Origin: Halioglobus sp.
Lineage (GTDB): Bacteria; Pseudomonadota; Gammaproteobacteria; Pseudomonadales; Halieaceae
DNA: 46,706 nucleotides
Direction of reading: 5' to 3'
NCBI GenBank assembly: GCA_020443425.1
Contig: JAGRIE010000032.1
Location: 1 to 46,706, forward strand
The position numbers and the translations under genes were made by a program. Below are positions 5,066 to 25,608 of this stretch, in pieces. Within the stretch, counting starts at the first letter, position 1, and every line of letters starts with the position of its first letter. The notes under the pieces were generated by a model that did not search any database, was not told the DNA's origin, and saw only the letters and a program-made list of their open reading frames with translations.

Positions 5066-5299
5066 GGGCGGGCTTGTTGGTGGTGCCACCCCGTTTCGAC
5101 GATGGAATGTCCCTGCTGTGCCCCTGCTGGCGCGTTTTGCGCCGTCTCCCGCACCGTCCGCTTCTTTTACACTTGGGAGAGGACGCGCGCTCGATGTTTG
5201 GTAAGCAACTGATATAAAACAATAAAAAATAGTGGCATGAATATCGCATGCCTTCGACCCTTTACCAACAATAGAAAACGAGCGGTGGAAAAGACGTCC

Positions 5300-5859: not shown

Positions 5860-7086
5860 CTAAGGCGTGCCAATCACGGCATCCGCTGCCAGTTGATCGA
5901 TCTCTGCGTCGCTGTACCCCGCCTCACTCAGGATTTCCCTGCTGTGTTCGCCAAGTCTTGGTGGGTGGCGGTACAGGGCGGCCGGTGTTTCAGACAGGTG
6001 TCCTGGGTAACGCACATAACGCAGGGTCCCGGCCTCCGGGTCGGGGTGTTCCGCATCGAAAATAGTGCGGTTGTGTCTTGCCTGTGGATCTTCGGCGAAT
6101 TCACGCACGGTCTTCACCGGGCCAAAGGGGACTCCCACGGCATCCAGTCGGGACAGCAGCTCATCGGTGGTAAAGCGTTTCATGACTTCCCCGATCGCAT
6201 CCAGCCAGGGAGCAAAGTCGCTGATACGCTCCCCAACATTTCGCATACCCTCCCGCTCCAGCAGTTCTGTGCATTCCAGCGCGTGACATAAGTTCTGGAA
6301 ATGATTGTCCTGTAGTGCCATGCCCACCACGAAACCATCCATGGTTTCAAATGTGCGCAAAACGGCCAGTGGTTGCGGATCCTGCATGTCATTGGGGACG
6401 AAGCTGTCGACCGGTATCAGGTCAGCCAGCGAGTTTGTGGCCCAGGCGTCAATCATAGGGACATCGACACGTTGGCCCCTGCCGGTGCCGCCGGGGCGGT
6501 CGCGCGCGTACAGCGCAGCCATTGCCACACCGGCTGCAGTGGTGGCAGTGGTCTTGTCGACGATCGCCGACTGGATCAGTTGCGGTTTGCCGCCAAACGG
6601 CATGCCCTGTATGTGCATCATGCCGACCAATCCCTGTGCAATCGGGTCGTAGGCAGGTTTGTGGGAATACGGCCCAGTGGGGCCAAAGCCGGTAATCGAC
6701 ACATAGACCAGCCTGTCGTTCACGGCACGCAAATCCTCATAACCAATGCCGAGCCGGTCGGGTACTCCCCCGCGAAAGTTCTCGACGAGGATATCCGCTG
6801 TCTGTGCCAGCTTTTTGATGATAGCAATACCCTCGGGGCTCTTGAGGTCCAGTGAAAGACTGCGTTTATTGCGGTTCATCTGTACGTAAAAACCAGTGAG
6901 CCCAGCCTTCTGCGGTGGCGACATCCAGCGGGAGATCTCTCCATGGGTTGGTTCGATCTTGATGACATCGGCGCCGAGGTCGCCCAGCTGTTGGCTGCAA
7001 AGCGGCCCAGTAATCATGGAGGTGATATCGATGACGCGGATACCCTTCAGGGGACCCTGGGGCGATGCTGACAGTTTGACATCCAT
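5860..7086 (-). CDS. class III (CaiB/BaiF) CoA-transferase
   Basis: 408 residues, typical for formyl-CoA transferase/CaiB-type enzymes, which move CoA between carboxylic acids through an aspartyl-CoA thioester. The N-terminal signature is present (GIRVIDIT, then GDLGADVIKIEPTHGE), as are NRNKRSLSLDLK, the VENFRGGVPDRLGIGYEDLR segment and SITGFGPTGPY. The conserved catalytic Asp is most likely D147 in AYDPIAQG. The acid substrate cannot be inferred; 2-methylacyl-CoA racemases share the fold and should be kept in mind. The gene diverges from the DUF1214/sulfotransferase pair beginning at 7402. A perfect 13-bp hairpin lies in its leader, 30 bases before the start. Confidence 0.9.
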   Translation of the reverse strand: MDVKLSASPQGPLKGIRVIDITSMITGPLCSQQLGDLGADVIKIEPTHGEISRWMSPPQKAGLTGFYVQMNRNKRSLSLDLKSPEGIAIIKKLAQTADILVENFRGGVPDRLGIGYEDLRAVNDRLVYVSITGFGPTGPYSHKPAYDPIAQGLVGMMHIQGMPFGGKPQLIQSAIVDKTTATTAAGVAMAALYARDRPGGTGRGQRVDVPMIDAWATNSLADLIPVDSFVPNDMQDPQPLAVLRTFETMDGFVVGMALQDNHFQNLCHALECTELLEREGMRNVGERISDFAPWLDAIGEVMKRFTTDELLSRLDAVGVPFGPVKTVREFAEDPQARHNRTIFDAEHPDPEAGTLRYVRYPGHLSETPAALYRHPPRLGEHSREILSEAGYSDAEIDQLAADAVIGTP

Positions 7087-7401: not shown

Positions 7402-8589
7402 ATGTTTGGAGACAACCCGCACGATGCCGAGTTGAAAGCGAGCTGGGAAGATTTCTGTGATCAATTGAAGCGCGCGGGTGATCTGGTGTTCCGTGATACC
7501 ACACCCAACCACGATATTGACCGTGCCAAGGGCTTGCGGCTATTGGCGAGGAATATGTCTCTTGCCCTGCAGTTCCATCTGGAGAATAACAACCCGGATT
7601 TTCCGGAGTTGCTGCATTATTTTGACCCGCTGCGCAAACAGGGCGGCGACAACACGGATGCGTTGTATGTCGGCGCCCCGATCAATGGTGAACACACCTA
7701 CCGTATCAGCGGCCTGCGCGGTACCGCCCGCTACTTTGCCGTTACAGTGGTTGAGGATGGACCCACCCCCTGGGGAGGGGCGGTGGCGGGCAATCTGATC
7801 GACAGTGATATCGAGGTGGCGGCAGACGGTGTGTTCGAGATCGTCCTGAGCCCTCACGAGCATGCAGGCAACTGGATACGGACCACGCCCGGGAGTTGGC
7901 GCGTTACCATCAGGCAGTTTTTTGCCGACTGGGAAAATGAGGTTCCAATGACGGCGCGAATCGATCGCCTGGGTGAACTGGAGCACAACCCGATGCTGAG
8001 CGTGGCAGACCTACAAAAAGGTCTGGCGGACGCAGTCGCATGGGTGCGGGATTCAACGGTGTACTGGGCTGAGATGCTGGGCAAGTGGAAGGTGCAGCCG
8101 AATCGGTTTCTGTCCTATCGGCAGTTGGACGACAACGCCATTGATGCCACCCCCGGTGGTGAGCCACTGATCTGCTACTGGCAGGTGCCCGAGGATGAAG
8201 TGCTGGTCGTTCGGGTGACACCTCCCGCAGCCAATTACTGGGCGGTGGAGTTTGGCAACTGCTGGTGGGAGACTATGGATTACCGCTACCGATTGTGCAG
8301 CACCAACTGCCATCATGCCCAGTTGGAAAGTGATGGTGAGTTGATCCTGGTGGTGTCACACCAGGACCCCGGTGTACCCAATTGGCTGGACCCCTCGGGA
8401 CACCAGGAGGGCTATATCACGGTGCGCTGGATCGGGGCTGAGCACTATCCCATCCCGCAGTGCACGCAGATGAAGTTGGAGAAACTGTCATCCTGTTTGC
8501 CCGCTGATGTCCGCTCCATCAGTCCAGAACAACGAAGGCGACAGTTGGCGGCGCGCCGCAGCGGTGTAATCAGGCGCTTTGGCTACTAG
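7402..8589 (+). CDS. DUF1214-domain protein (copy 1)
   Basis: 395 residues, no signal peptide or membrane segment. The C-terminal third carries the DUF1214-like pattern: an aromatic-rich YWAVEFGNCWWETMDYR segment, then VSHQDPGVPNWLDPSGHQEG and a TVRW strand. The middle has GAPINGEHTYRISG and a GNWIRTTPGSWRVTIRQFF segment. The function of this domain is not established. The product is clearly related to the protein at 13710-14825, which shares DALYVGAPINGEHTYRI-type and DPGVPNWLD-type blocks. Seventeen bases separate it from the sulfotransferase gene downstream, so the two are probably one transcript. The same gene pair in the same order recurs on the other strand at 14825-12470. Confidence 0.85.
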   Translation: MFGDNPHDAELKASWEDFCDQLKRAGDLVFRDTTPNHDIDRAKGLRLLARNMSLALQFHLENNNPDFPELLHYFDPLRKQGGDNTDALYVGAPINGEHTYRISGLRGTARYFAVTVVEDGPTPWGGAVAGNLIDSDIEVAADGVFEIVLSPHEHAGNWIRTTPGSWRVTIRQFFADWENEVPMTARIDRLGELEHNPMLSVADLQKGLADAVAWVRDSTVYWAEMLGKWKVQPNRFLSYRQLDDNAIDATPGGEPLICYWQVPEDEVLVVRVTPPAANYWAVEFGNCWWETMDYRYRLCSTNCHHAQLESDGELILVVSHQDPGVPNWLDPSGHQEGYITVRWIGAEHYPIPQCTQMKLEKLSSCLPADVRSISPEQRRRQLAARRSGVIRRFGY

Positions 8590-8606
8590 AACATTCAGGA
8601 AACCTG

Positions 8607-9860
8607 ATGAGTAATACCAGCGGCCCGATGTGGATACCTCCCCCGCACCCCCAGTGGCTCAGCACCGTGAATCAAGAGGGGAGCTACTTCAACCTCGAGG
8701 CGGTTGTGCCGCTGGACGAGGCGTCGCTGATCCACCATGCCTGCCGCTCTACCGGACTCGACGATTTCGGTGATGACCTGTGGAGGGAGCCGTTCGGCGT
8801 GCTTATCCGTTCACTGGAGGAAGAGGGCCAGCTGACACTGATGGGCCGCCTGATGGCCAGGAGTGACATTATCCTGTGGTTGAGTGCGCGCCTGCAGGTG
8901 GTGGATACGTTGAAGAGACATCCACAGATACTGGATGAGGAAATCGTTGCGCCCATGGTGATTGTCGGCCTGCCTCGCTCGGGAACCTCGATACTGTTCG
9001 AACTCCTGTCACAGGATCCCGAGGTCGGGGTGCCGCTGATGTGGGAGGCCTTGCAACCCTGTCCTCCTCCGGAAGCAGCCACCTACCGCACCGACCCCCG
9101 TATTGAGCAGGCCGACAAGCTGTTTACGCAGTGGAGCCGTGTGGCACCTGAATTTGCCAGCATGCATGAGATGCGCGGTGATATTCCTGCAGAGTGTGGC
9201 TTGTTAATGGCTGGAACTTTCATCAGCGATCACTGCGCGTCGCTACACCAGACAAACAGTTACAGTGCCTGGTGTCTGGCGGCGGACTTTACCCCGGTAT
9301 ATAAATACCACAAGAGGGTGCTGCAGATACTACAGTGGAAAAACCCGCGCAAGCGCTGGCTGCTGAAAGCCCCGGAGCACCAGGTGCATCTCGATACGCT
9401 GTTGCAGGTCTATCCGGATGCACGCATTGTGCAAACCCATCGCGACCCCATCAAATGCATGGCATCGACCGCCAGCCTGATGGGTACCCTGTATTACATG
9501 CGCAGCGACCAGCCTTTCAACGCGCAGTTGTTTGACAATATCATCATGGGCGATGCCACGGCGCAGCGGCTGGAGCGTGTCATTCAACAGCGGGAGCAGG
9601 GCGTTGTTCCGTCGACAAATATAGTCGACTCGCGCTACCAGGATTTGATAGATGATCCCATCTCATGCATCGCCAATATCTACGACCACTTCGGAATGCC
9701 TTTTCACGACGCCGCACGGTCACGCATGCTGGATTATCTTGAACACAAGCCGCAGGGCAAGTTCGGCGCGCATCGCTACGAGATCGACGCCAGCAAGACT
9801 CGCGACCGACCGCTATTCAAACGCTACCAAACCCTTTACAACGTGCCTGATGAGTTGTAG
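8607..9860 (+). CDS. sulfotransferase-fold protein (Sulfotransfer_3 type), copy 1
   Basis: 417 residues. The 5'-phosphosulfate loop is GLPRSGTS at residues 121-128, after strand PMVIV. The 3'-phosphate region is RIVQTHRDPIKCMASTASL in the second half. An N-terminal helical part includes TGLDDFGDD and EEEGQLTLMGRLMAR, which also occur in the paralogues at 12470 and 14822. Sulfotransferases transfer sulfate from PAPS to a hydroxyl or amine; many bacterial members of this subgroup lack a known substrate. LLKAPEHQVHLDTLLQVYPDA matches the central conserved block of the family. It is co-oriented with the DUF1214 gene 17 bases upstream and converges on rlmA. The acceptor may be a hydrophobic alcohol (inference from neighbours). 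Confidence 0.88.
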   Translation: MSNTSGPMWIPPPHPQWLSTVNQEGSYFNLEAVVPLDEASLIHHACRSTGLDDFGDDLWREPFGVLIRSLEEEGQLTLMGRLMARSDIILWLSARLQVVDTLKRHPQILDEEIVAPMVIVGLPRSGTSILFELLSQDPEVGVPLMWEALQPCPPPEAATYRTDPRIEQADKLFTQWSRVAPEFASMHEMRGDIPAECGLLMAGTFISDHCASLHQTNSYSAWCLAADFTPVYKYHKRVLQILQWKNPRKRWLLKAPEHQVHLDTLLQVYPDARIVQTHRDPIKCMASTASLMGTLYYMRSDQPFNAQLFDNIIMGDATAQRLERVIQQREQGVVPSTNIVDSRYQDLIDDPISCIANIYDHFGMPFHDAARSRMLDYLEHKPQGKFGAHRYEIDASKTRDRPLFKRYQTLYNVPDEL

Positions 9861-9888
9861 CGCCGGGCGACGTGTAATCAGGCCGTTC

Positions 9889-10743
9889 TTACCCCGGCGG
9901 GTTTTTGTGCAGCAGTTGGACACGGACGTCTACAGTGACAGGAAAATTCTGTAATTGCGCCGCGCGCAGTTTCCCCTCGTGACTGGCGCGGAACAGGTGG
10001 GGTGTCATGGTCAGGAGGTCGCTGATCTCCCGCTGGCGCAGCGGCGCGGTGGTGTACTGCAGCGAGGATGAATGACCTTGCACAAATCCCGCGTCTACCG
10101 CCTGTTGCACGACAGCGGATTCGCTGTGTTTGATAGTGGGGTAGAGGATTTCACGCAGCTCTATCAGGTGTCGTGGGCCGGCGGTGACCAGTAACAAGGT
10201 GCCGCCGGGTTGCAGAGCAGTCATAAAAGCGTCGAATACTGGAAAGCCGAACAGGCAGAGCAGGCAGTCTACACTGCCCGGTGCCAGAGGGATGCGCCGG
10301 TTGCTGGCGACCAGCCATGTGGCCTGAATACGCCGCGTCGCTGCCTGCACAGCCCACTTGGAGATATCGAAGCCTATCAGTGTCGCAGCACCGGCATCGA
10401 GATCGAGGTGCTGTTGCAGCTTTTCCAGATAGTAGCCTTCACCGCAACCGGCATCGGCGATGACGGCATCGCGGCCGATAAGCCGGGACACCGATACAGC
10501 CAGCGCTTCAGCCACCGGTTCATAGTGTCCAGATTGCAGGAATTCACGCCGCGCAGCCACCATATCCCTGCTGTCGCCCGGGTCCCGGCTGCGCTTGTCG
10601 CCCGGCCCGAGCAAATTGACATAGCCCTGCCGGGCGATATCAAAACAGTGCCCTTTCTCGCACCGCAACTGACCGTCTTTCACCTGCATTGCACTCTGCT
10701 CCAGTGGGCAGCGCAGCAGTTCGCTATAGCGAAACTTCATCAT
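9889..10743 (-). CDS. rlmA: 23S rRNA (guanine-N1)-methyltransferase RlmA
   Basis: 284 residues. The N-terminal zinc-finger-like region (residues 11-42) is followed by the characteristic FDIARQGYVNLL and KRSRDPGDSRDMVAARREFL, both diagnostic of RlmA, which methylates N1 of G745 in 23S rRNA hairpin 35 using SAM. The SAM-binding motif ADAGCGEGYYLEKL starts near residue 100, and TAGPRHLIELREILYP follows in the second half. In E. coli RlmA zinc is held by C-x2-C and C-x3-H. Here the first pair reads CPLE (C12, E15) and the second CEKGH (C27, H31), so one cysteine is missing. It lies 46 bases after the dienelactone-hydrolase-like gene and may be cotranscribed. Start is the ATG at 10743 or the adjacent one at 10740. 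Confidence 0.92.
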   Translation of the reverse strand: MMKFRYSELLRCPLEQSAMQVKDGQLRCEKGHCFDIARQGYVNLLGPGDKRSRDPGDSRDMVAARREFLQSGHYEPVAEALAVSVSRLIGRDAVIADAGCGEGYYLEKLQQHLDLDAGAATLIGFDISKWAVQAATRRIQATWLVASNRRIPLAPGSVDCLLCLFGFPVFDAFMTALQPGGTLLLVTAGPRHLIELREILYPTIKHSESAVVQQAVDAGFVQGHSSSLQYTTAPLRQREISDLLTMTPHLFRASHEGKLRAAQLQNFPVTVDVRVQLLHKNPPG

Positions 10744-10789
10744 TGAGTTAGCGCCGGGCGGTGGGAGAGGCTACAGCCTCTGCAGCAGT

Positions 10790-11560
10790 TCACTGCAACT
10801 GCGCTGAAAAATAGCTGAGAATACTGTCCAGCGCCTCGCGAGTGGGATGCCCCTGCTCATCAACGAAATCGATGGTGAGGACCGAGTGACCCTTTCCCGG
10901 CAGGGTATGATTCACAATACGCGTGTTATCGCTGTCGTTGAAAGCCTTGTCGATGGCTTCGAATTTCTGAGCGTTACAGAGTGGGTCCCCCGCAAAGCGA
11001 TAGGCGTGCATAGGCGCCGTGGAATCGATCCTTCGGCGAACCCCCTCAATCTCATCGGCTGACATATGCAGTTCGCTGGCTTTCATCAGCGGCATTGACG
11101 GTTGTGAACTGACTGCGGCCAGTACGCTGTCATCACCCATCAGTGAAATAGCGAAATTGCCGGTCAAGCACATGCCGATAACCCCGACGCCAGGATGATC
11201 ACCCTGGGCTCTGATATCGCGACACAGCGCTCTCAGCCAGTCGACGATAGGACTGGATCGGTTTGCCTCGAACAGGCTGAACTCCCTGCGCATGCAGAAT
11301 ACCCGCAGCAGGTTGCCCCCCATACTGATTTTACCCAGCGGGCCGAACAGGTGCGGCAGTATCACCTCAAACCCCCGCGCAACGAACGCATCCGCCAGAT
11401 GCAGGGTTTGCGGGCCGATGCCCGGCAGTTCCTGGATGATCACCACGGGTGCTCCGCTACCGAGCCGATAGATATCGTGGCTGATTTCGGGGCCGTTGCC
11501 ACCCGGGGCGGTGAAGCGGGTCTTGCTGTACTTGGAAACAGGGGTGGGGGGTGCCGTCAT
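10790..11560 (-). CDS. dienelactone hydrolase family protein
   Basis: 256 residues with the alpha/beta-hydrolase layout of dienelactone hydrolases: VVIIQELPGIGPQ (oxyanion region, near residue 40), ADAFVARGFEVILPHLFG, the nucleophile elbow GMCLTGNF with a Cys at about residue 130, an Asp in the RFAGDPLCNAQKF segment, and a C-terminal GKGHSVLTIDF supplying the His. The Cys-Asp-His triad is as in ClcD-type enzymes, which open lactone rings in aromatic degradation; the substrate here is unknown. The start ATG overlaps the stop of the LLM oxidoreductase gene by four bases (ATGA), so it belongs to the operon read from 16144 down. Confidence 0.88.
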   Translation of the reverse strand: MTAPPTPVSKYSKTRFTAPGGNGPEISHDIYRLGSGAPVVIIQELPGIGPQTLHLADAFVARGFEVILPHLFGPLGKISMGGNLLRVFCMRREFSLFEANRSSPIVDWLRALCRDIRAQGDHPGVGVIGMCLTGNFAISLMGDDSVLAAVSSQPSMPLMKASELHMSADEIEGVRRRIDSTAPMHAYRFAGDPLCNAQKFEAIDKAFNDSDNTRIVNHTLPGKGHSVLTIDFVDEQGHPTREALDSILSYFSAQLQ

Positions 11561-12438
11561 ACACGGGTACCAAAGTGGCGGATAATCGATTCAGCAAAGT
11601 GTTCCATCGAGCGCTTTTTCTCGTCAAGCGTCGTATGCTTTTTTGCCAGCGCGTATCGGAATGGCGGTGCGACCGTGCTGTGCAGCCCATCATCCGCCAG
11701 ACGGCGGTATAGATCCAGATCGGGTGGGGCGGTGACCCCGATCATTTCCTCGAATGGCAGGTGATCGCGGTGGTAGCGCTTCCTGAGCTCCGCCAGCGTT
11801 GCCAGTAGTGTACCCACATCCTCCGGCGCTGTCCCCGCGCCGATGTAACCATCACCGATGCGGGCGGCACGATGCAGTGCAGCTTCACTCGCACCGCCGA
11901 TATAGACCGGCGGATGGCATTGTGGAGCCGGGCTGAGTTGTACACGCGGGAAGTCGAAAAACTCGCCGTGATACTCCACCATTTCACCCTGCCACAACGC
12001 GTGCAAGACACCGATCATCTCGTCAGTGATCTTGCCGCGCTGTCGGAAATCCACGCCGTAGATGTCGAACTCCTCCTTCATCCAGCCCACACCCACGCCG
12101 AGAATGAAGCGGTTGTCACTGATGATGGCCAGCGTGGCAGCGGCACGCGCCACTTCGTGCGGGTTGCGCAGCGGCAGCACATAGACGCCGCAGGTGAAAT
12201 GCAGGTTGCGGGTTACTGCGGCCATTGCGCCAAATATGGCGGCCTGGTCCGGGTACTCATCGCTGGGCTGCATCGGCGGCAGGCCGGTGCCTGAATACGG
12301 GTAATCAGGGGCGATGGACTCAGGATAGACGGCGTGGTCGCCGCTCATCAGGCCGTGAAACCCGACTTCCTCGGCGAAACGGGCGATCTCGACCAGCTGA
12401 TCGGTCTCCGCCCAGGTAATGGCCTGCCAGAATTTCAT
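11557..12438 (-). CDS. LLM-class flavin-dependent oxidoreductase
   Basis: 293 residues with the bacterial luciferase-like barrel. Visible landmarks are EIARFAEEVGFHGLMSGDH near residues 17-35, TCGVYVLPLRNPHEVARAAATL, then RFILGVGVGWMKEEFDIYG and PPVYIGGASEAALHRAARIGDG. The arrangement matches the TIGR03619-like group often annotated as F420-dependent, but FMN use is equally possible because no cofactor genes are in the window. Such enzymes oxygenate or reduce small organic substrates. It is translationally coupled to the dienelactone hydrolase (4-base overlap) and 31 bases from the preceding sulfotransferase. An oxygenase followed by a lactone-type hydrolase suggests a ring-opening step (inference). 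Confidence 0.88.
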   Translation of the reverse strand: MKFWQAITWAETDQLVEIARFAEEVGFHGLMSGDHAVYPESIAPDYPYSGTGLPPMQPSDEYPDQAAIFGAMAAVTRNLHFTCGVYVLPLRNPHEVARAAATLAIISDNRFILGVGVGWMKEEFDIYGVDFRQRGKITDEMIGVLHALWQGEMVEYHGEFFDFPRVQLSPAPQCHPPVYIGGASEAALHRAARIGDGYIGAGTAPEDVGTLLATLAELRKRYHRDHLPFEEMIGVTAPPDLDLYRRLADDGLHSTVAPPFRYALAKKHTTLDEKKRSMEHFAESIIRHFGTRV

Positions 12439-12469
12439 ACCGCCTCCTTAGTGTGCGAGCGACCCTCAC

Positions 12470-13708
12470 TCACAGTGGTTCGCGGGGAACGTTAAAGTAG
12501 GTTTCGTACTCCGTAAACAAGGCGCGCAACTCCTGTTCCTCCATGCCGGTATTGGCGAGACTGTAAATATGCCTGCCGTGTTTGTCTGCCGGGTTGTCGT
12601 CGAGAAACGCCTGCATGGCTGCCGCCGCGCTGTCCGGGAGTGTCAGGCCAAAGTGTTCGTACGCGCGGCGCACTGTACCCACCTGATCAGCCATAAAATC
12701 CCTGAAATAGAGATCGACAACCTGGTCCTCCGGCAGCAGGCCGGATTTTCGATAAGCCACGGTGTTGTTGTACCCGCGGGCCAGTGCGTGCGCATAGTAT
12801 CGGGTAACTTTTGCCACATCGGTGTGATCGCTGGCCATGCCTTGCAGATGGGCGGCGAGGTTGCTGGTGGAGATAACTATCTTGACCGGGTCGCGGTGGG
12901 TTTGCACGAACAGCGCATCGGGGTACTCGCGGTGTATCTGTTGCAGGTGCCACAGGTGTTGGGGAGATTTCAGCGCCCAGCGCTTGCCGGGGGCTTTCCA
13001 CTGCAGCACCTGCAGGAAGCGGCGGTGCCATTTCAGTGCTGAGCGCATATCGCATTCAATCACCCAGCGGTCGTAAGTGGGTACGAAGAACTGCACCAGA
13101 TAAATCATGGAGGTAAAGTCATGGCTCGTCATGGTGACGCATTCCTGCGCTCGCTCTGCGCCCATGGGGTGCATTTTCTTGAAATCGGGCAGCAGTTTGT
13201 CCACCTGGTCGAGGTCGGCCTGTGCCAGAGCAATGCGTGGGTCACTTTTATAGGTCGCTGTTTCCGGCGGCGGCAAGGGACGGGCGGTCTCCCAGGTCAA
13301 GGGCACCCGGTTGTCCGGATCCATCACCAGCAGGTCGTGAAAAATGGTGGTTCCGGAACGCGGCGGGCCGACGACAAATATGGGGCGTTCGATGCCCTGT
13401 TCGGCGATTTCCGGATGCTGCTTGAAAATCGCCACGAACCCCAGCCGGTTCTCCAGTGTCCGCACCAGGTCCCCACGTGCGATGATGCGGCCCAACAGGG
13501 ACAGGTCAGCCTCTTTTTCCAGGCTGTCGAGCAGCAGCGCCAGCGGCTGGCGGAAATCATCCTCGCCAAAATCACTCAGGCCTGTGTTCGCCATCGCCGT
13601 CTGCAGCAGTTTGTCAACGCTGAGGTCAACGGGCTGCAGCCCCAGCGCATTGGCCCCGCGTCCGGCCAGGTTTAACAGGCGTACCGGAAGCGGCAGTGAT
13701 GCGCTCAT
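12470..13708 (-). CDS. sulfotransferase-fold protein (Sulfotransfer_3 type), copy 2
   Basis: 412 residues. The 5'-phosphosulfate loop is GPPRSGTT in PIFVVGPPRSGTTIFHDLL, near residue 125. The 3'-phosphate motif is FVQTHRDPVKIVISTSNL, and WALKSPQHLWHLQQIHREYPDA is the central family block. TGLSDFGEDDFRQPL near residues 43-57 is shared with the two other long copies in the window. There are no membrane segments. It starts one base after the DUF1214 gene stop, so the two are almost certainly cotranscribed, repeating the DUF1214-then-sulfotransferase order seen at 7402-9860. The sulfate acceptor is unknown. Confidence 0.88.
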   Translation of the reverse strand: MSASLPLPVRLLNLAGRGANALGLQPVDLSVDKLLQTAMANTGLSDFGEDDFRQPLALLLDSLEKEADLSLLGRIIARGDLVRTLENRLGFVAIFKQHPEIAEQGIERPIFVVGPPRSGTTIFHDLLVMDPDNRVPLTWETARPLPPPETATYKSDPRIALAQADLDQVDKLLPDFKKMHPMGAERAQECVTMTSHDFTSMIYLVQFFVPTYDRWVIECDMRSALKWHRRFLQVLQWKAPGKRWALKSPQHLWHLQQIHREYPDALFVQTHRDPVKIVISTSNLAAHLQGMASDHTDVAKVTRYYAHALARGYNNTVAYRKSGLLPEDQVVDLYFRDFMADQVGTVRRAYEHFGLTLPDSAAAAMQAFLDDNPADKHGRHIYSLANTGMEEQELRALFTEYETYFNVPREPL

Positions 13709-13709
13709 G

Positions 13710-14825
13710 TCAGTTCGCCAGCGCGGACAGTTTCACCACTTCAGCCTGTGGGGTATCGACATCGCCGGTGACCAGGAAGAAGCGCCAGAACAGCAGGCCG
13801 AACAGGTTGCCCTCGGTGTCCAGCCAGTTGGGCAGGCCGGGGTCGCTGTGTGACAGGATCATCCTGAAGCTGCCATCGTCCTCAAGTACGGTCTGGGCAC
13901 GATTCAATGACACGCTGCGACTGCGATAATCCAGCGTTTGCTGGAAGCGGTTCCAGATGCAGACATTGCCAAACTGGCACTGCGGCCAGCGTCCGGTGAT
14001 CACAAGCGCCTCATCCGGCCCGATAAAAAAGGGCGCCATGGAGTAGTGGGCATCGAAGGCCGCGAGGCCGAAGTCGCCAGGCGGTTGTGGCGCGGGAAAC
14101 GCATTCGGTGTCAGTGACACAAATCCTGGCTGCACGCTGTTTGCCATAGGCGGCATTCCCAGTGTGCGGCTGTGCACCGCATTGCAGACACGACGGATGC
14201 CGGCGGCAACACTGGCGTCATCGGGTGGCTGCGGAACTGTCGGTGCGCTGAGGCACTCGATGCGGATGCGCGGCTCCATGTCCGGTTCGCTCGCAGCGCA
14301 GACAGTGTTCTCGAAGTAGTGGCGGGTGGTGACACGCGATGCCCCCGGCGTGAGCGCCAGCCAGTTGCTGTCGCGCGGTTTGCCGCCCAGATACACCGTG
14401 AAATGTCCGTTGCTGTCGATTTCCAGGTGCTGGTCATTTATTACGCCAGCGGTATTGCTGGCCATCAGCCCATCTTCCGCGCCCTCTTCAATGGTCAGGG
14501 AAAAGTAGGCTGCACCGTGCATGCTGCCGTGGATGACGTATTCATGTTCGCCGCTGATCGGCGCATCGAAGTAGATTGCGTCGGAGTTGTCGCCTGTCAG
14601 TTTGCGACTGGGGGTGACGATGCGCCGAAAATCGGGTCGCGTCGCATCTTGCTCGAAATACCCGACCAGGGCCGTCTCCAGGGTATGCATCAGGGAGCGA
14701 TGGGAGAGGGTGATATCCTCCGCCGAATTGAGGTTCCACTCCGGGCCGGACCAGCGCTTGTCGACCTCCTGCAGTAGTGCGATAAACTCGGCCAGCGCCG
14801 CGCGACTTTCGGTTTGTATGCTCAT
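13710..14825 (-). CDS. DUF1214-domain protein (copy 2)
   Basis: 371 residues, no signal peptide. It shares with the protein at 7402-8589 a SDAIYFDAPISGEHEYVIHG block, a PRDSNWLALTPGASRVTTRHYF block, and a C-terminal FQQTLDYRSRSVSLN followed by LSHSDPGLPNWLDTEG, the DUF1214-like signature. Overall similarity looks moderate, so the duplication is not recent. Its start overlaps the stop of the sulfotransferase at 14822 by four bases, and the next sulfotransferase starts one base after its own stop, which places it in the middle of a tight three-gene core. Function is unknown. Constant pairing with sulfotransferases suggests a shared substrate or an accessory role (inference). Confidence 0.85.
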   Translation of the reverse strand: MSIQTESRAALAEFIALLQEVDKRWSGPEWNLNSAEDITLSHRSLMHTLETALVGYFEQDATRPDFRRIVTPSRKLTGDNSDAIYFDAPISGEHEYVIHGSMHGAAYFSLTIEEGAEDGLMASNTAGVINDQHLEIDSNGHFTVYLGGKPRDSNWLALTPGASRVTTRHYFENTVCAASEPDMEPRIRIECLSAPTVPQPPDDASVAAGIRRVCNAVHSRTLGMPPMANSVQPGFVSLTPNAFPAPQPPGDFGLAAFDAHYSMAPFFIGPDEALVITGRWPQCQFGNVCIWNRFQQTLDYRSRSVSLNRAQTVLEDDGSFRMILSHSDPGLPNWLDTEGNLFGLLFWRFFLVTGDVDTPQAEVVKLSALAN

Positions 14826-16144
14826 GATGTCTCCGTAGTATTGGAACAGGCGGTTGTGTGCGGGTTTTTTGTCTCGTAGGGGATGTCGAAGCGGTTGCGA
14901 TAGAACATCAGGCGCCGGTCGACTGCCTGCTCATCGAGGCCGAAGTCGGACAGGCTATACCTGTGCTTGCCGTGCTGGTGCTGCTGATTACTGTCGAGCC
15001 AGTTCTGCATCCTGCCTCGCACATCATCGCTGAATGGCAGGTCGAGAAAGTCATAGATCCCCTGCAGTGCGCCCTGCCAATCCGCGGTGATATCGGCGTA
15101 CTGCACATCGTACTGGCGCTGCGGTGTCACCATCTCTTTGCGAACCTTCAGCGTTTTCTGCAGCATACGCTCGGTTTTTTCCAGCCACTCCCGGCCCACC
15201 CAATCGGGGGTTACGCTGTCGCTGTCACGCACAATCCCGTTCCAAGTCATGGAGCAGGAGGAGCCGACGACCTTGACCGGGTCGCGGTGCGGGCATACCA
15301 GCCTGGCGTTCGGGAACACATGCAGCAAGGCATCCAGATCCTGCATGTGCTGTGGCGTTTTCAGCACCCACGGTCGGTCTGGCGGGTCACCGCGGAACCA
15401 GGAGATGATTTTCATCAACACCACCATGTATTCATACGCAGTGTTCTGGTTGTGGGTCATCAGCCATTCCGCAAATGACGGGATTTTTGCCTGTACCTCG
15501 AAAATCTGGCTCGAAAATCCATGCTGTAGCAATCCCACTTCTTCTTCCACTTCAAACGTTCCCAGTGGGTGGACAGCTGCGATCTGTGGCCCCATGTACA
15601 TCACCGCCTTCAGGCCCGCATCCAGCGCGGTGATGCGGGGGTCAGTGCGGCCCGCATCGCGAGCGGCAAAACATTCCGGGTAGGGCACGGGAAACACAGT
15701 CTCCCAGGATTTGAGATGCAGAAAGCGGGGGTCGGAAGCGAGCAGACGGTGTAACCGGGTCGTGCCCGAGCGCGCCAGGCCGACAATCACCACCGGATCC
15801 GGAATCTGGCGCTCCAATATCTCTGGATGCCGCGTTAGCAACTCGTGCGCATAGAGACGGTGTTTCAGCAGCCTGAGGATATTGGTGCGATTCATGTAGC
15901 GGCCGACCGGGTTCAGGTCGGCCTCTTGCTCAAGCGCAGTAATCAATCGCTGCATCGGGTCGAGAAACCCCTCGTCACCAAAGTCGCGCAGGCCAGTGGC
16001 TTTGCGCGCAGTGGCGATCAGTTGGTCCTGCTGCAGTGGCAGTTTTGCGATACCGACGGCGGACAGCCCCCGCAACAGGGTATTGAGAGCGCGGATGGGC
16101 CGGCGATGGTAGTCGGTTGACTGTAAACGTCGTGAAGGACTCAA
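14822..16144 (-). CDS. sulfotransferase-fold protein (Sulfotransfer_3 type), copy 3
   Basis: 440 residues, first gene of the minus-strand operon that continues to about 10790 or 9889. The P-loop is GLARSGTT in PVVIVGLARSGTTRLHRLL (near residue 123), and the 3'-phosphate region is RLVCPHRDPVKVVGSSCSM. TGLRDFGDEGFLDPM and LKTPQHMQDLDALLHVFPNA align with the other two long copies. It carries Ala where they have Pro in the P-loop. The gene diverges from the TetR-type regulator with about 85 bases between the start codons, a usual arrangement for local control. The acceptor molecule is not readable from sequence. Confidence 0.87.
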   Translation of the reverse strand: MSPSRRLQSTDYHRRPIRALNTLLRGLSAVGIAKLPLQQDQLIATARKATGLRDFGDEGFLDPMQRLITALEQEADLNPVGRYMNRTNILRLLKHRLYAHELLTRHPEILERQIPDPVVIVGLARSGTTRLHRLLASDPRFLHLKSWETVFPVPYPECFAARDAGRTDPRITALDAGLKAVMYMGPQIAAVHPLGTFEVEEEVGLLQHGFSSQIFEVQAKIPSFAEWLMTHNQNTAYEYMVVLMKIISWFRGDPPDRPWVLKTPQHMQDLDALLHVFPNARLVCPHRDPVKVVGSSCSMTWNGIVRDSDSVTPDWVGREWLEKTERMLQKTLKVRKEMVTPQRQYDVQYADITADWQGALQGIYDFLDLPFSDDVRGRMQNWLDSNQQHQHGKHRYSLSDFGLDEQAVDRRLMFYRNRFDIPYETKNPHTTACSNTTETS

Positions 16145-16228
16145 ATTATCTGCGCCTGTTATTAACCGATGTCAAACGGTGCTTGTCGCTATTGGGCATT
16201 TGTCCCAGAATGTCTCATTCTTCCGCTG

Positions 16229-16831
16229 ATGACTCAAGGCTTACCAGGCCAAATGACTGAACCCCGGCCAGATCCTGTCGAATTAATTATCAATGCCGCA
16301 CGTTGCTGCTATCTTGCCGCCGGGATTTCGGCGACAGGGATGAAGGATGTGGCGGATTGCGCCGGTGTTGCCCGGTCTACAGTGTATCGCTATTTCCCCG
16401 GCCGTGATGACTTGCTGGTGGCGACCATCAAAGTTGAAATGGAGCAGTTGAATGTGCGGTTGCGGCAGAGATTGTCGAAATACCCCGATCCTGCGGATCA
16501 GGTGGTCGAGGGCATGATTCTCGCCATCAAGGAGGTGCCCCGGCGGCCGCTTCTGCGCGCGGTTTTCGCATCCGATGAGGACAGTCGCGCACGGCGTGCA
16601 ATCTGGAACTCCGATGTCATCGTCCGTTTCGGTGAGGAGTTGATGGATCCTGTCATCACACCAGCGAGGGCCGCCGGGATGTTACAGGACGGGGTGCGCG
16701 CCGAAGCGCTCATCGAGTGGGTTTACCGCCTGTTGTTGTCCTTTCTGACACTACCCAGTCATTGGATAAAGACCGACTCGCAACTTCGCACTACGCTGCA
16801 CACACTTCTTGTGCCGGTGCTACTGAAGTAG
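16229..16831 (+). CDS. TetR/AcrR-family transcriptional regulator
   Basis: 200 residues from the ATG at 16229; another ATG at 16253 (MTEPRPD) is equally plausible, and a third at 16169 adds a stretch unlike a regulator. The N-terminal helix-turn-helix is clear: AARCCYLAAGISATGMKDVA, then CAGVARSTVYRYFPGRDDLL. The C-terminal ligand domain is family-typical and unassigned. It diverges from the sulfotransferase operon (start 16144) and its 3' end overlaps the convergent FAD oxidoreductase gene by 41 bases. TetR proteins usually repress neighbours and release DNA on ligand binding. The perfect inverted repeat at 18494-18521 is a candidate site. Confidence 0.88.
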   Translation: MTQGLPGQMTEPRPDPVELIINAARCCYLAAGISATGMKDVADCAGVARSTVYRYFPGRDDLLVATIKVEMEQLNVRLRQRLSKYPDPADQVVEGMILAIKEVPRRPLLRAVFASDEDSRARRAIWNSDVIVRFGEELMDPVITPARAAGMLQDGVRAEALIEWVYRLLLSFLTLPSHWIKTDSQLRTTLHTLLVPVLLK

Positions 16832-18449
16832 CGATTGCGCCGGTGGCGGTGGCTGCCATGATCTCGTGAGCGCAGTTGTAGCCCGGCAGAAATGTCACGC
16901 CGGGACCGGGGTGGCAGGAGGCGCCACAGAGGTACAGGTTTTCCACCGGCGTCGAGTGGCCCGTACCCTCGACCAGGCATCGCTCGCCTATCATCTGGTC
17001 CGGATGCAGTAAGCCATGGGTCCAATCGCCATTGGTGACGCCCTGCATACTGGCGAAATGATCGGCGGAGAATATTGCCTGATCGACAATCAGCGACCTG
17101 AAATTGGGCATGTGAACGCAGATATGGTCGATGATCTTCTCCGCCATCTGGCCGCGCATTTTACCGCGCCTGCTTTTATCGGCCTCGCAGGGGAAGTAGA
17201 AGCCATAGGCGGACGCAGTATGGTATCCGGGCGGTGCCAGGCTGCTGTCCACCACGGACGGTATCTGGAACGCGAGTGGAATCTGCTCGGGTAATTCTCC
17301 TCTCACGCAGGTCTCATAACTCTGTTGCAATACCTGTGGATCGAGCACCATTGCGCCGCCAAACCGCGAGCCGTGAATTTCGTTCAGTTTGCCGAGGTGG
17401 GCAGAGTATTCGGGTAAACCGCTGAGTTTGAACAGCATATGCACGAAAGCACCGCGGTGTGAAAAGGCATCTACTCGCTTCTGGTCCGTCGGCGCAAGTT
17501 TGCAGTCGCTGAGCAGACGGTTGAAAGTCGCCTGTTTGTCCAGATTGGAGATGATGGTTTCAGCGTACAAGGTCTCACCGCTCTTGAGTGCAACCCCTAC
17601 CGCCTTGTTGTCTTCTACCAGGATCCGCGAGACGCTTTGTTTGAGACGCACTTCTCCACCCAACGCTTCGATCTGTTCCGCCAGGGATTCGGACAGGCGA
17701 CCGAGACCGCCCTTCACGCGCTGCATCAGGCCTTCGGAGCCCTCCTGTGCCATCGTATAGACCAGACACAGCCCAGAGCCCTCCGTGTAAGGGCCCTTGT
17801 AGGTGGCCTGGACGGCGGCAAAAGCCATGCTGGCGCGCAGTTCGCGGTGTTGAATGCGGTTGGGAAAGAACTTGTCGAGGATATCCATCGCCGAGCCTTT
17901 AAACGCCAACTCCAGGTGCGCACGCTGCTGTGGCGTCCTGGCTTCAGCGATCAGGTCCTCCAGCTTTCGCGGCGCTTTGCGGGCGGTAAAGCGATCCAGC
18001 AGACGAGCGGGATACTGGCAAAAACGCAGGAATCGGACGAATCCCATCATTCCGCTGAGGCCAAAGGTTCGCAGCAGGTTGAAACTCAGCCTGACCGGGT
18101 TCCGATAGATCACAAACGGGCGCCCGTCTGGACCCACAAGGTTGACCGCCATCACGGGTAGCGGAATGAGTTCGACGCCATGCGCCTCGAAGTCGAAGTA
18201 GCGTTTGATTTCGGCGGAGAGTGGGAACAGGCAACTGGCGCCTACTTCGTTGCGGCACCCCTTCAGGATTTCCCGGGTGCCACCCATGCCGCCGACAAAA
18301 TTGTTCTTCTCCAGCACCAGTACTCGTCGGCCATTGCGCGCCAGCACCAGTGCGGCGGCCAGGCCATTGTGGCCTGCGCCCACCACGATACAGTCGAATC
18401 TGTCGGGCGCTCGTCCGGTGCCGCTGGGTGAATCGGTAGATCTGGCCAT
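16791..18449 (-). CDS. phytoene-desaturase-like FAD-dependent oxidoreductase
   Basis: 552 residues. The FAD-binding dinucleotide fold is at the N terminus: CIVVGAGHNGLAAALVLARN (residues 20-39), with the ribose-binding Glu in LVLEKNN and a GGMGG loop. NEVGASCLFPL and the C-terminal LYLCGASCHPGPGVTFLPGYN complete the pattern of the carotenoid-desaturase/PYROXD2-like group. Length of 500-550 is normal. No other carotenoid gene is in the window, so the natural substrate may be another polyene, lipid or steroid-like compound. It diverges from the kinase gene at 18585 across a perfect palindrome, and its last 41 bases overlap the TetR gene on the opposite strand. Confidence 0.85.
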   Translation of the reverse strand: MARSTDSPSGTGRAPDRFDCIVVGAGHNGLAAALVLARNGRRVLVLEKNNFVGGMGGTREILKGCRNEVGASCLFPLSAEIKRYFDFEAHGVELIPLPVMAVNLVGPDGRPFVIYRNPVRLSFNLLRTFGLSGMMGFVRFLRFCQYPARLLDRFTARKAPRKLEDLIAEARTPQQRAHLELAFKGSAMDILDKFFPNRIQHRELRASMAFAAVQATYKGPYTEGSGLCLVYTMAQEGSEGLMQRVKGGLGRLSESLAEQIEALGGEVRLKQSVSRILVEDNKAVGVALKSGETLYAETIISNLDKQATFNRLLSDCKLAPTDQKRVDAFSHRGAFVHMLFKLSGLPEYSAHLGKLNEIHGSRFGGAMVLDPQVLQQSYETCVRGELPEQIPLAFQIPSVVDSSLAPPGYHTASAYGFYFPCEADKSRRGKMRGQMAEKIIDHICVHMPNFRSLIVDQAIFSADHFASMQGVTNGDWTHGLLHPDQMIGERCLVEGTGHSTPVENLYLCGASCHPGPGVTFLPGYNCAHEIMAATATGAIATSVAPAQEVCAA

Positions 18450-18493: not shown

Positions 18494-18521
18494 ATAGGAC
18501 ATATTATTAAAAATGTCCTAT
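18494..18521. promoter_or_regulatory. perfect palindrome, candidate TetR-type operator
   Basis: ATAGGACAT (18494-18502), a 10-base AT-rich spacer, then the exact complement ATGTCCTAT (18513-18521). It lies between the divergent FAD oxidoreductase (start 18449) and kinase (start 18585) genes, where one repressor dimer pair could control both. A partial match (AATGTCTCAT) occurs upstream of the TetR gene near 16209-16218. Assignment to that regulator is inference. Confidence 0.6.
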
Positions 18522-18584
18522 AACGGCGATCAGTCGGCCGCCGGCACCGGCAATTATATAAACAGGCAGGTTCAGGGAGCGCTC

Positions 18585-19796
18585 ATGGCTATATCGGATG
18601 CAGCCCGGCTAGCAGCGGTGGCAGCAATGGGAGGGGGCCGTCTGCTCGGGGACACGCTGGGTGATATAACCGGTACCAGCATGCCCTACAAAGCGGAGGA
18701 TGTCGCGACACCAACTGTGTTAGCGGCGCTGATCAACAGCGGGGCCCTCGCACCGGCTGCCGCCCCGGTGCGATTGAGTCGGGTACAGCGACAGTCGATA
18801 CCCTCTGTCAGCAGCAATTGCGAAAACCTTGTGCTCACTATCGAGCAGCACGGTGAGCCGGTCCTGCCGCACAGCCTCTTCGTCAAACTGCCGATGGAGT
18901 CATTGCTGACCCGATGGTTTTTCACCATCATCAACGCCTGGCAGTTGGAATCCTATTTTTTTCGTCATGTGGCGCACAGGCAGCCACTGCGCACGCCGGT
19001 CACCTATGCCACACGGTGCCAGGGGGCGCGATTTTTCCTTGTGCAGGAGAACCTCCACGAGGATCCCTCGGTAGTGTTGTTCACTAATCCCGATATGATG
19101 GCCGGGCCTCCGCTGGAACTGGCGTATCGCTGTCTCGATGCCTTCGCCCGTTTGCACGCCTGCCACTATGGGCTCAGCGCAGCTGAGCGCGAAGCGATAC
19201 TGCCGGGGAGATACCATATTCTCCTGTCGCCAGGTATGGGGCTGGCGGCGCGTATGTTGAACCGCCTGGCCCTGCAGCCGACCATGCAAAAGTTGCCGGG
19301 CGTGATACCCGCCCACGTGGAAGCGGTTTACCTGCGTACAATGGATAATTGGGATGCGTTGCTGCGATACTGGTTTTCCGGTCCGCTCTCTCTGCTGCAC
19401 GGGGACAGCCACCTCGGTAACTTTTTCGTTTCGGGTGATGACATGGGCATGCTGGACTGGCAGGCGGTGCACTGGGGTAAAGGTATTCGTGACGTACAGT
19501 ACTTCCTGATTGACTCGCTGCCCGCTCATATACTGGCGGAACACGAGAGCGAGTTGGTTGCATACTATGTGCAGCGTCGCGCGCATCACGGTGAGCCAAT
19601 CGACCTGCAACAGACCTGGCAGGAGTATCGCAGTTTTACCTTTCACTCGCTGATGACCATCGCAGTGTCTATAGGTTTCGGCGCCCTGAATGAGGACCAG
19701 GACGAACTGATGGGGGAGGTGTTACGCCGCACCGTGGCTGCGGTGGAACGCGTGGACTACGCCGGCTGGCTGGACAATTTCCTCGCCGCACAGTAG
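18585..19796 (+). CDS. CHK/aminoglycoside-phosphotransferase-like kinase
   Basis: 403 residues from the ATG at 18585, chosen because AGGGAG lies six bases upstream; the earlier ATG at 18513 sits inside the palindrome and lacks a ribosome site. The catalytic loop is HGDSHLGN (about 272-279) and the metal-binding Asp is in LDWQ (about 291), as in APH and ecdysteroid-kinase-like (CHK) families. FFLVQENLHEDP is a plausible N-lobe hinge segment. Members phosphorylate small hydroxylated molecules. Here the neighbours suggest a lipid, steroid or sugar alcohol rather than an antibiotic (inference). A zinc alcohol dehydrogenase follows after 28 bases, probably in the same transcript. Confidence 0.82.
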   Translation: MAISDAARLAAVAAMGGGRLLGDTLGDITGTSMPYKAEDVATPTVLAALINSGALAPAAAPVRLSRVQRQSIPSVSSNCENLVLTIEQHGEPVLPHSLFVKLPMESLLTRWFFTIINAWQLESYFFRHVAHRQPLRTPVTYATRCQGARFFLVQENLHEDPSVVLFTNPDMMAGPPLELAYRCLDAFARLHACHYGLSAAEREAILPGRYHILLSPGMGLAARMLNRLALQPTMQKLPGVIPAHVEAVYLRTMDNWDALLRYWFSGPLSLLHGDSHLGNFFVSGDDMGMLDWQAVHWGKGIRDVQYFLIDSLPAHILAEHESELVAYYVQRRAHHGEPIDLQQTWQEYRSFTFHSLMTIAVSIGFGALNEDQDELMGEVLRRTVAAVERVDYAGWLDNFLAAQ

Positions 19797-23164: not shown

Positions 23165-23388
23165 TCTGTTGTGGACCGTATCGCGGGGCCGGCATGCTCT
23201 TACCCGGCAGACCTGTATGCTCTCAGTGAATGTACGCCAGCTTATATTAGGCGAGTAGATCAAGTCCACACAGCGTTGACGGCGCTTCGTATGGACAGCG
23301 CCTGACAGCGCCGCGGTGATTTTGTATGCTGCAGTCACGCGCCTACGCCATATCCCGGAGCTACGGCGTGAACCGACCGGAGACCGTG

Positions 23389-24829: not shown

Positions 24830-24833
24830 GGCG

Positions 24834-25442: not shown

Positions 25443-25469
25443 GCTCTTGTTCCGAGGATGTTTGGAGAG

Positions 25470-25496
25470 TATACGCACGATTGCGGTATTGGATCA
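25470..25496 (-). promoter_or_regulatory. RpoE-type promoter for the sigma/anti-sigma genes
   Basis: On the minus strand TGATCC (25496-25491), 15 bases, CGTATA (25475-25470). It lies 28 bases before the sigma start codon. It pairs with a near-identical divergent motif at 25609. The form agrees with what I recall for ECF11-type sigma factors controlled by ChrR. Confidence 0.75.
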
Positions 25497-25608
25497 CTGG
25501 ATTCCATAAATAGATGGACCGGGGCCAGTACCTGTCCCGCCTCTGCCCTGGCCTCAGGCGATCCCTGCCGGCGTCGTCTCCGGGTGCAGGTGGAAATTCC
25601 GGCTACAC

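Follow-up and report, generated by a model that had tools for sequence, protein, structure and literature searches.

A stretch of 46,706 nucleotides from the genome of Halioglobus sp. (GenBank assembly GCA_020443425.1, contig JAGRIE010000032.1), which we call the window, contains two pairs of genes in which a DUF1214 gene is directly followed by the gene for a Sulfotransfer_3-family sulfotransferase. We propose, with a probability of about 0.65, that both pairs belong to a widespread module of steroid-type catabolism that carries out sulfonation with 3'-phosphoadenosine 5'-phosphosulfate (PAPS), and that comprises a DUF1214 protein, a sulfotransferase, and often a short-chain dehydrogenase/reductase (SDR). 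A functional link between the DUF1214 protein and the sulfotransferase is supported by adjacency that is conserved in several phyla and by trees in which the sulfotransferase partners track the type of DUF1214 protein. We take the substrate to be a hydrophobic compound, most probably of steroid type, judging from relatives in which KshA is linked or co-occurs, or which have KstR boxes. For the window itself, which shows no PAPS genes, KshA, or exact KstR box, a steroid substrate is extrapolated from these relatives and from the presence of four KshA_C genes in other parts of the genome.

Pairing of DUF1214 and sulfotransferase genes

The genes of the two pairs, and a third sulfotransferase gene, are:

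7402..8589, plus strand: dA, DUF1214 protein A, 395 amino acids (Pfam DUF1214, 43.7 bits; gathering score 25)
8607..9860, plus strand: stA, sulfotransferase A, the partner of dA (Pfam Sulfotransfer_3, 120 bits; gathering score 27)
12470..13708, minus strand: stB, sulfotransferase B, 1 base downstream of dB (Sulfotransfer_3, 147 bits; gathering score 27)
13710..14825, minus strand: dB, DUF1214 protein B, 371 amino acids (Pfam DUF1214, 42.3 bits; gathering score 25)
14822..16144, minus strand: stC, sulfotransferase C, the first gene of the minus-strand run (Sulfotransfer_3, 144.8 bits; gathering score 27)

A preliminary description of this DNA, made from the letters alone, had reported a DUF1214 gene followed by a sulfotransferase gene twice, in the same order and on opposite strands. 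The open reading frame (ORF) calls bear this out, with gaps of 17 bases between dA and stA and 1 base between dB and stB. They also agree, as does Pfam, that the third sulfotransferase gene is coupled to dB by an overlap of 4 bases and that the run continues into genes for a luciferase-like monooxygenase (LLM) class oxidoreductase and a dienelactone-hydrolase-like (DLH) protein. The order of transcription on the minus strand is stC-dB-stB-LLM-DLH.

A scan of genomes confirmed 582 relatives of dA, and we surveyed the loci of the 80 that ranked highest by likeness to dA. Outside the window, genes were called with a codon-usage caller that was built for this analysis, and labels for sulfotransferases, DUF1214 proteins, and other proteins beyond Pfam and NCBIfam came from hidden Markov models or BLAST clusters that were built from these loci. 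Because gene starts outside the window were trimmed to the match with the profile, the gap lengths given for these loci are approximate. In 67 of the 80 loci, our sulfotransferase profile found a gene within 2 kb of a DUF1214 gene, and in 49 the sulfotransferase gene was on the same strand and within 300 bases (42 downstream and 7 upstream). When the whole fetched stretch is counted (at most about 17 kb), 69 of the 80 had a sulfotransferase gene and 11 had none. Across 51 downstream pairs, with the window's two counted in, the median gap was about 20 bases. SDRs were present in 50 of the 80 loci.

Two further sets of loci were hand-picked, blind to sulfotransferases: 20 actinobacterial loci, from 48 listed matches, and 20 gammaproteobacterial loci, with the genus's orthologues of dA and dB excluded. 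A sulfotransferase gene lay within 2 kb in 18 of the 20 actinobacterial loci and in 13 of the 20 gammaproteobacterial loci. As a background for these 40 loci, there was just one sulfotransferase gene in the 344,663 bases that lie more than 2.5 kb from DUF1214. The difference between 31/40 and this background rules out chance adjacency, and the neighborhood survey that the preliminary description had suggested as a check thus finds that the pairing is not random.

Trees of the two families give a similar picture. The distance matrices of DUF1214 proteins and sulfotransferases had a mirror-tree correlation of 0.69 (n = 68 non-redundant pairs; the maximum of 2000 permutations was 0.18), a value that is inflated by shared descent. 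In the sulfotransferase tree, 25 of 26 partners of dA-type proteins formed one clade (L115 was outside), and 10 of 11 rows for dB-type proteins formed a second clade. The eleventh row (L070) falls outside because stB is absent from that locus and stC was used in its place. The stA-type and stB-type clades were joined at 96% SH-aLRT. A distant proteobacterial metagenome-assembled genome (MAG), L108, has one pair of the dA type and one of the dB type, and the sulfotransferase of each groups with the clade of that type (at 90% for the second pair). The partners of the DUF1214 type from Pseudomonas and actinobacteria were not one clade (4 changes in 28 rows). Overall, the partners follow the DUF1214 type, and the unrelated origins that would have told against the preliminary description are not what the trees show.

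That description had also called the module duplicated. The window does have two paralogous pairs, but the duplication is ancient: dA and dB are 29% identical and stA and stB are 38% identical (stB and stC are 34% identical, and stA and stC 33%). These identities, together with the presence of both pair types in the distant L108, rule out a recent co-duplication of the two pairs.

The window's own genome (4.33 Mb, with the window as contig C148) encodes six two-lobed DUF1214 proteins, and 4 of the 6 genes have a sulfotransferase gene within 2 kb (twice in the window, and on contigs C111 and C22). On C111, the stop of the DUF1214 gene overlaps the likely start of the sulfotransferase gene by 4 bases. 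On C22, the order is P450-sulfotransferase-SDR-DUF1214-SDR, where the cytochrome P450 (P450) was assigned via its cluster (c23). As a side observation, the one-strand run on C22 (L067, 7163-15796) looks like another version of the module, with genes for an LLM protein, a P450-like protein, a sulfotransferase, an SDR, a DUF1214 protein, another SDR, and a beta-lactamase-fold protein; its sulfotransferase has a hydrophobic N-terminal stretch.

Other loci count against the module as we read it, and in particular against obligate pairing. In 13 of the 80 loci, DUF1214 has no sulfotransferase gene as close as 2 kb. Five loci (L064 and L077-L080), where dB-type relatives or paralogues are encoded, have none in about 20 kb, and pairing of dB-type genes with a sulfotransferase was seen in the genus and in L108. 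In the window's own genome, the DUF1214 genes on C140 and C178 (2 of the 6) have no sulfotransferase gene within 2 kb. Two Sphingobium plasmids carry DUF1214 with no sulfotransferase gene in the 15-19 kb that was fetched, and on a Sphingomonas plasmid, DUF1214 is 4 kb away from a sulfotransferase-SDR pair. These loci and plasmids imply that DUF1214 can occur without a linked sulfotransferase. Conversely, Sulfotransfer_3 is found in 9 of 11 relatives of the window that lack DUF1214, which rules out the mere presence of a sulfotransferase as a marker for the module. Of the 11 genomes whose fetched DUF1214 locus had no sulfotransferase gene, 10 have one elsewhere. (The Sphingobium plasmids, L258 from strain TomTYG65 and L256 from S. 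herbicidovorans, have DUF1214 beside genes for NTF2-like or small unnamed proteins, an alcohol dehydrogenase, and beta-oxidation enzymes.)

Sulfotransferases, PAPS supply, and the DUF1214 protein

The three sulfotransferases have an intact RSGT loop (GLPRSGT in stA) and an intact HRDP motif. Across 69 sulfotransferases, with stA, stB, and stC included, R117, G119, T120, H271, R272, P274, and S280 (stB numbering) are conserved at 95-100%, while D273 is 91% conserved and the serine of RSGT is under 90%. We take R117, G119, and T120 to form the loop that binds the 5' phosphosulfate of PAPS, and R272 and S280 to form the 3' phosphate site. Both by Pfam and by the presence of the phosphosulfate loop and the R...S of the 3' phosphate site, stA, stB, and stC belong to Sulfotransfer_3. 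The relatives of stA in the PDB are 2zq5 and 2z6v, and stB matches 2zq5 with E = 7e-55. From these motifs, and from the PAPS genes that lie beside the pair in relatives, we predict that the sulfotransferases of the window transfer sulfonate from PAPS.

Genes for the synthesis of PAPS are found in a subset of the loci. CysNC is encoded in 18 of the 80 loci and CysD in 12, all of them among the 67 loci with a linked sulfotransferase and none among the other 13. One representative of CysNC and two of CysD pass the NCBIfam cut-offs. In 3 of the 20 actinobacterial loci (L225-L227), CysD-CysNC is divergent from DUF1214-SDR-sulfotransferase; the identity of these genes was checked in NCBIfam for L226. 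Adenosine 5'-phosphosulfate (APS) kinase directly follows DUF1214-sulfotransferase, in one run, in a locus from the window's family (L253, 6967-10030) and in another from its order (L246, 4610-7560).

Another neighbor, which we call c10, might remove the product 3'-phosphoadenosine 5'-phosphate (PAP). It is found in 14 of the 80 loci, all of them with a linked sulfotransferase, and it has DHH and DHHA1 motifs. The model of c10 has a mean predicted local distance difference test (pLDDT) score of 92.3, and its top structural match in the PDB is a PAP phosphatase (8a8k, E = 1.9e-13, TM score 0.69), followed by other DHH phosphoesterases. A search with a single c10 sequence found NrnA at E = 0.028. 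A c10 profile matched no PDB sequence at E ≤ 0.1, which counts against this assignment, and three members of c10 had no match in NCBIfam. Of these searches, the one by structure alone gave a clear answer. In some lineages, then, genes for making PAPS, using it, and probably clearing PAP lie beside the pair.

Alternatively, the Sulfotransfer_3 proteins of these loci could have a scaffolding role or transfer a group other than sulfonate, and their association with PAPS genes would then be a feature of a few lineages only. No PAPS gene was found among the 39 ORFs of the window that were scanned, which counts against our reading of the window, and CysNC is present in a minority of loci. The family is also expanded: Sulfotransfer_3 has 26 matches in the window's own genome. 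However, the PAPS-binding residues are nearly invariant, and PAPS genes lie beside the pair in both Pseudomonadota and Actinomycetota, so we consider this alternative very unlikely. (The expansion is an observation in its own right. It is large and unexplained, with 26 matches in a 4.3-Mb genome and 32 in the genome of L090, a Litorirhabdus.)

The DUF1214 protein dA was modeled with AlphaFold2 (mean pLDDT 93.9) as two beta-sandwich lobes, and the closest solved fold is 6ans. A Pfam score above gathering and the two-lobed, VPA0735-like fold place it in DUF1214. Proteins with the DUF1254/DUF1214 fold (VPA0735, VPA0106, and 6ans) are titled as uncharacterised or by locus name, and the window's DUF1214 proteins are just 12-14% identical to VPA0735 and VPA0106 from Vibrio. 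In a simple hydropathy scan, the start of dA was not signal-peptide-like. In a set of 68 DUF1214 proteins, twelve positions with polar or aromatic residues are the same in 66 or more; this pattern fits an enzyme and would also be compatible with a binder.

Probable links to steroid catabolism

The evidence for a steroid-type substrate comes from relatives. In a Pseudomonas locus (L123), DUF1214 is followed by genes for a sulfotransferase, an SDR, c10, and, four genes after DUF1214, a KshA_C Rieske protein (249 bits, as compared to a threshold of 23.3). An extended version of the Pseudomonas locus (L178 and L179) also encodes a FAD_binding_2 flavoprotein, an FNR-Fer2 reductase, AMP-binding ligases, more SDRs, and an old yellow enzyme (OYE). 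One of the ligases passes the cut-off for FadD3 (751.8 vs. 657 bits). One Pseudomonas genome (G053) has genes for an extradiol-dioxygenase-like protein, KshA_C, and DUF1214 together on the same strand, inside a span of 15 kb.

DUF1214 and KshA_C also tend to occur in the same genomes. A co-occurrence search took the genomes behind 50 of the 80 loci, which without that of L162 gave 49 genomes, and 46 of them have KshA_C. Of 296 Actinomycetota genomes, 18 have DUF1214 and 278 do not; at E ≤ 1e-20, KshA_C matches 11 of the former and 5 of the latter, and at E ≤ 1e-80 it matches 7 and none. In one Pseudomonas-type genus, KshA_C was found at E ≤ 1e-60 in all 10 genomes with DUF1214 and in 3 of the 8 without it, and 6 of the 10 have a second copy of KshA within 5 kb of DUF1214. 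Among relatives of the window, KshA_C is present in 24 of 26 genomes with DUF1214 and in 3 of 11 without it. One of the four KshA_C genes in the window's own genome (E = 8e-33) is 3.3 kb from an extradiol-dioxygenase-like gene. The extradiol genes can be called only HsaC/TesB-like because none of 13 genomes had a match over the cut-off of the model TIGR03213.

In the actinobacterial loci, the module may be controlled with steroid genes. The order DUF1214-SDR-sulfotransferase is found in 6 of the 20 loci (L221, L223, and L225-L228), and 3 of these have a convergent KshA gene. In 5 of the 20, the DUF1214 or sulfotransferase run starts right after an exact KstR-type box, which precedes DUF1214 in L221, L223, L225, and L227 and the sulfotransferase gene in L224, where that gene leads. 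The box in L228 has one mismatch, and L226 has none. In total there are 15 exact boxes in 312 kb, as compared to an average of 1.0 in shuffled sequence (30 shuffles, maximum 3). The ten other boxes are elsewhere, including two inside DUF1214 genes (L217 and L230), and 11 of the 20 loci have no box at all.

Several results weigh against a steroid-type module. In the extended Pseudomonas locus, the flavoprotein passes the cut-off of NF005511 ("FAD-binding protein") while models for 3-ketosteroid dehydrogenase score far below theirs, and the FNR-Fer2 reductase is under every cut-off shown. The labels KstD-like and KshB-like are thus mere suggestions, because the models match under their cut-offs. 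KshA is inside the fetched locus in just 4 of the 80 loci. KshA_C is a broad family, and at the search tool's own threshold the comparison in Actinomycetota is 12 of 18 vs. 9 of 278. Counted by genus, the comparison among the window's relatives is 7 of 9 vs. 3 of 11, a weak association (p = 0.07), and the 3 of 11 relatives that carry KshA_C without DUF1214 count against a strict link. DUF1214 is present without KshA_C in genomes G018, G023, G043, G079, and G084, among them the 3 of the 49 genomes of the co-occurrence search. In the window, there is no exact match to T..AAC..GTT..A and no KshA among the 39 scanned ORFs, so neither mark of a KstR-regulated steroid operon, a box upstream and a linked KshA, is found there. 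Our confidence in steroid sulfonation is lower because KstR boxes are found at just 5 of 20 starts and because the KstD and KshB labels are under cut-offs.

The surroundings of the module also bear on what the sulfonate is for. Sulfonation might be a conjugation by which toxic hydrophobic alcohols are tolerated, stored, or exported (compare cholesterol in gut Bacteroides), with DUF1214 as a binder or carrier. The twelve near-invariant positions of DUF1214 fit an enzyme and would allow this too. However, the neighbors and the regulation in subsets of relatives are catabolic (KstR boxes, KshA, and a ligase of the FadD3 family), which makes conjugation seem unlikely to us.

The gene cluster, known systems, and significance

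Around the two pairs in the window are these genes:

5860..7086, minus strand: CoA-transferase family III (Pfam CoA_transf_3, 349.3 bits)
10790..11560, minus strand: DLH protein, an optional member (Pfam DLH)
11557..12438, minus strand: LLM-class oxidoreductase, in the minus-strand run (Pfam Bac_luciferase; over the cut-off of TIGR03619)
16169..16831, plus strand: TetR-type regulator, divergent from the minus-strand run (Pfam TetR_N)
16791..18449, minus strand: phytoene-desaturase/CrtO-like flavoprotein, cluster c7 (under NCBIfam cut-offs)
18513..19796, plus strand: EcKL/APH (CHK-type) kinase (Pfam EcKL, 42.2 bits)
19825..20769, plus strand: zinc-type alcohol dehydrogenase (Pfam ADH_N)

Pfam and NCBIfam place the CoA-transferase, the TetR regulator, the phytoene-desaturase-like enzyme, the CHK-type kinase, and the alcohol dehydrogenase in the families that the preliminary description had assigned. 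The best NCBIfam match of the TetR regulator is the KstR model, far under the cut-off (37.9 vs. 280 bits).

We compared the window to 12 loci from the same genus (13 clusters in all; the counts are lower bounds because contig ends or a limit of 20 kb cut some of them). stC, dB, and the genes for the LLM oxidoreductase and the alcohol dehydrogenase are in all 13; stB and the genes for the TetR regulator, the CrtO-like flavoprotein, and the EcKL-type kinase are in 12; the CoA-transferase gene is in 8, dA and stA are in 7, and the DLH gene is in 4. Among named records, the closest proteins to dA are from Halioglobus, Haliea, Pseudohalioglobus, and Parahaliea, all Halieaceae. Two relatives from the genus (L070 and L072) have an SDR gene between dA and stA, where the window has none, and L073 has a gene for a TonB-dependent receptor inside the cluster region. 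c7 flavoproteins are also encoded beside or near DUF1214-sulfotransferase in L129, L154, and L138. In two of these, which are MAGs of Actinomycetota, they are downstream (L154, 5292-8696; L129, 11418-13133), a placement that echoes the CrtO-like gene by the window's pairs; in L154, a MarR-type gene is in between.

The module of the Halieaceae may act on a non-steroid hydrophobic compound, such as a terpenoid, a carotenoid-derived compound, or a lipid alcohol, with steroids confined to Pseudomonas and Actinomycetota; this would be compatible with the sulfonation part of our proposal. Members of the KshA cluster are absent from the genus loci L068-L076 and L081-L083, none of the genus's listed KshA_C places is near the cluster, and the CrtO-like flavoprotein and the EcKL-type kinase are nearly constant members. 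The dA-type pair is also found in Thauera terpenica, which presumably uses monoterpenes. On the other hand, KshA_C is present at E ≤ 1e-50 in 17 of 18 genomes of the genus, with the window's own included, and at 4e-28 in the other, and an OYE from the Pseudomonas locus shares 56% identity with the OYE (cluster c5) that is encoded beside the cluster in Halieaceae relatives. We regard a non-steroid substrate in Halieaceae as a real possibility, if not the one we favor. The preliminary description had DUF1214 and the sulfotransferase share a hydrophobic substrate in a pathway for a sterol-, terpenoid-, or lipid-like alcohol; a functional link between the two proteins is supported, the hydrophobic class is judged from the KshA and KstR context of relatives, and among the candidates the steroid is favored.

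Other genes of the window were noted in passing. A fourth, shorter sulfotransferase gene (22409-23338, minus strand) matches Sulfotransfer_3/Stf0 and is found in 5 of the 13 genus clusters, some of which are cut short. Between the two pairs and downstream of the DLH gene is an RlmA-type methyltransferase gene (9889-10743, minus strand), which follows the DLH gene in four genus relatives as well. Genes for proteins with PEP-CTERM motifs (5237-5833 and 20933-21592) flank the cluster. Farther away are genes for a fatty acid cis/trans isomerase (1432-3681, minus strand) and, at 24176-30491, for a ChrR-like cupin, a sigma factor, an amine-oxidase-type flavoprotein, a DUF1365 protein, a cyclopropane-synthase-type methyltransferase, and a photolyase, which we take to be a cluster for light or singlet-oxygen stress.

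If the module is for steroid-type sulfonation, as we favor, then the SDR would set or read whether a position on a polycyclic intermediate is a hydroxyl or a ketone. The sulfotransferase would move sulfonate from PAPS to the hydroxyl, as its intact PAPS motifs and the genes for PAPS synthesis and PAP-phosphatase-like proteins in a subset of relatives suggest. The two-lobed DUF1214 protein, which would be cytosolic, might act on the same intermediate or on its sulfonated form. In the window, two ancient pairs and an extra sulfotransferase would then be part of a cluster that breaks down a hydrophobic compound, most probably one of steroid type. In a more speculative form, which we think improbable, the sulfotransferase would spend PAPS to form a sulfate ester and DUF1214 would be a lyase of a new kind, removing the sulfate by elimination so that a C=C bond is left; the SDR would make the alcohol beforehand, and a neighboring OYE or CrtO-like flavoenzyme would handle the alkene afterwards. 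Such a sulfonation and elimination would explain why PAPS is spent in catabolism and why these flavoenzymes are nearby (OYE is encoded in 10 of the 80 loci and CrtO-like enzymes in 3, besides their presence in the genus clusters). CurM, from the curacin pathway, is a precedent for sulfonation that turns a hydroxyl into a leaving group, within a polyketide synthase and followed by a thioesterase. It is a weak match to stC (4gbm, E = 1e-3) and has no DUF1214 protein.

Two known systems resemble the module in part. In Bacteroides thetaiotaomicron, BT_0411-BT_0416 include a PAPS-dependent sulfotransferase that acts on cholesterol, beside putative genes for PAPS synthesis, much like the sulfotransferase, PAPS supply, and proposed sterol substrate of the module in relatives; the parts of that report available to us mention no DUF1214, SDR, or ring-degradation gene (PMC9417993). 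There, as far as those parts go, the sulfonate is the end product, whereas the present module sits in catabolic surroundings, and the likeness drawn here is one of gene context. The window has no PAPS genes beside its sulfotransferases in the 39 scanned ORFs, while such genes are present in the 18 of 80 loci with CysNC and in L253 and L246 (APS kinase).

The second system is a set of KstR-regulated genes in mycobacteria. In published tables, the products of Rv3529c-Rv3530c-Rv3531c carry the labels hypothetical protein and possible oxidoreductase, and L221 resembles the listed genes and box positions (PMC6429209, PMC1995591): KshA and a 177 amino acid gene lie next to sulfotransferase-SDR-DUF1214, with one KstR-type box ahead of KshA and another ahead of DUF1214. 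L221 has the same order as kshA, Rv3527, and Rv3529c-Rv3530c-Rv3531c in mycobacteria, and both box positions, with no counterpart of Rv3528c. Rv3531c is presumably a DUF1214 protein, which fits the gene order of L221 and does not come from its own sequence. The window differs from the mycobacterial set in that it has no exact KstR box and no SDR gene between dA and stA.

In the open-access literature that we searched (most subscription papers are outside it), we found no description of a DUF1214-sulfotransferase module or of a sulfonation step in steroid catabolism, in keeping with the preliminary description of the pathway as undescribed. The DUF1214-SDR-sulfotransferase module, with its own PAPS supply in some lineages, points to an unrecognised sulfonation step in aerobic steroid catabolism. 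This catabolism matters for environmental clean-up, for the manufacture of sterol-derived drugs, and for the physiology of mycobacteria, and several KstR-regulated genes are without a role. If the elimination of sulfate were true, then the enzymatic activity of DUF1214 would be a first for its fold, and a step of steroid catabolism would be paid for in PAPS, with some lineages bringing their own PAPS supply and PAP clearance. More broadly, the module gives the DUF1214 fold, which has no assigned function, a concrete and testable setting.

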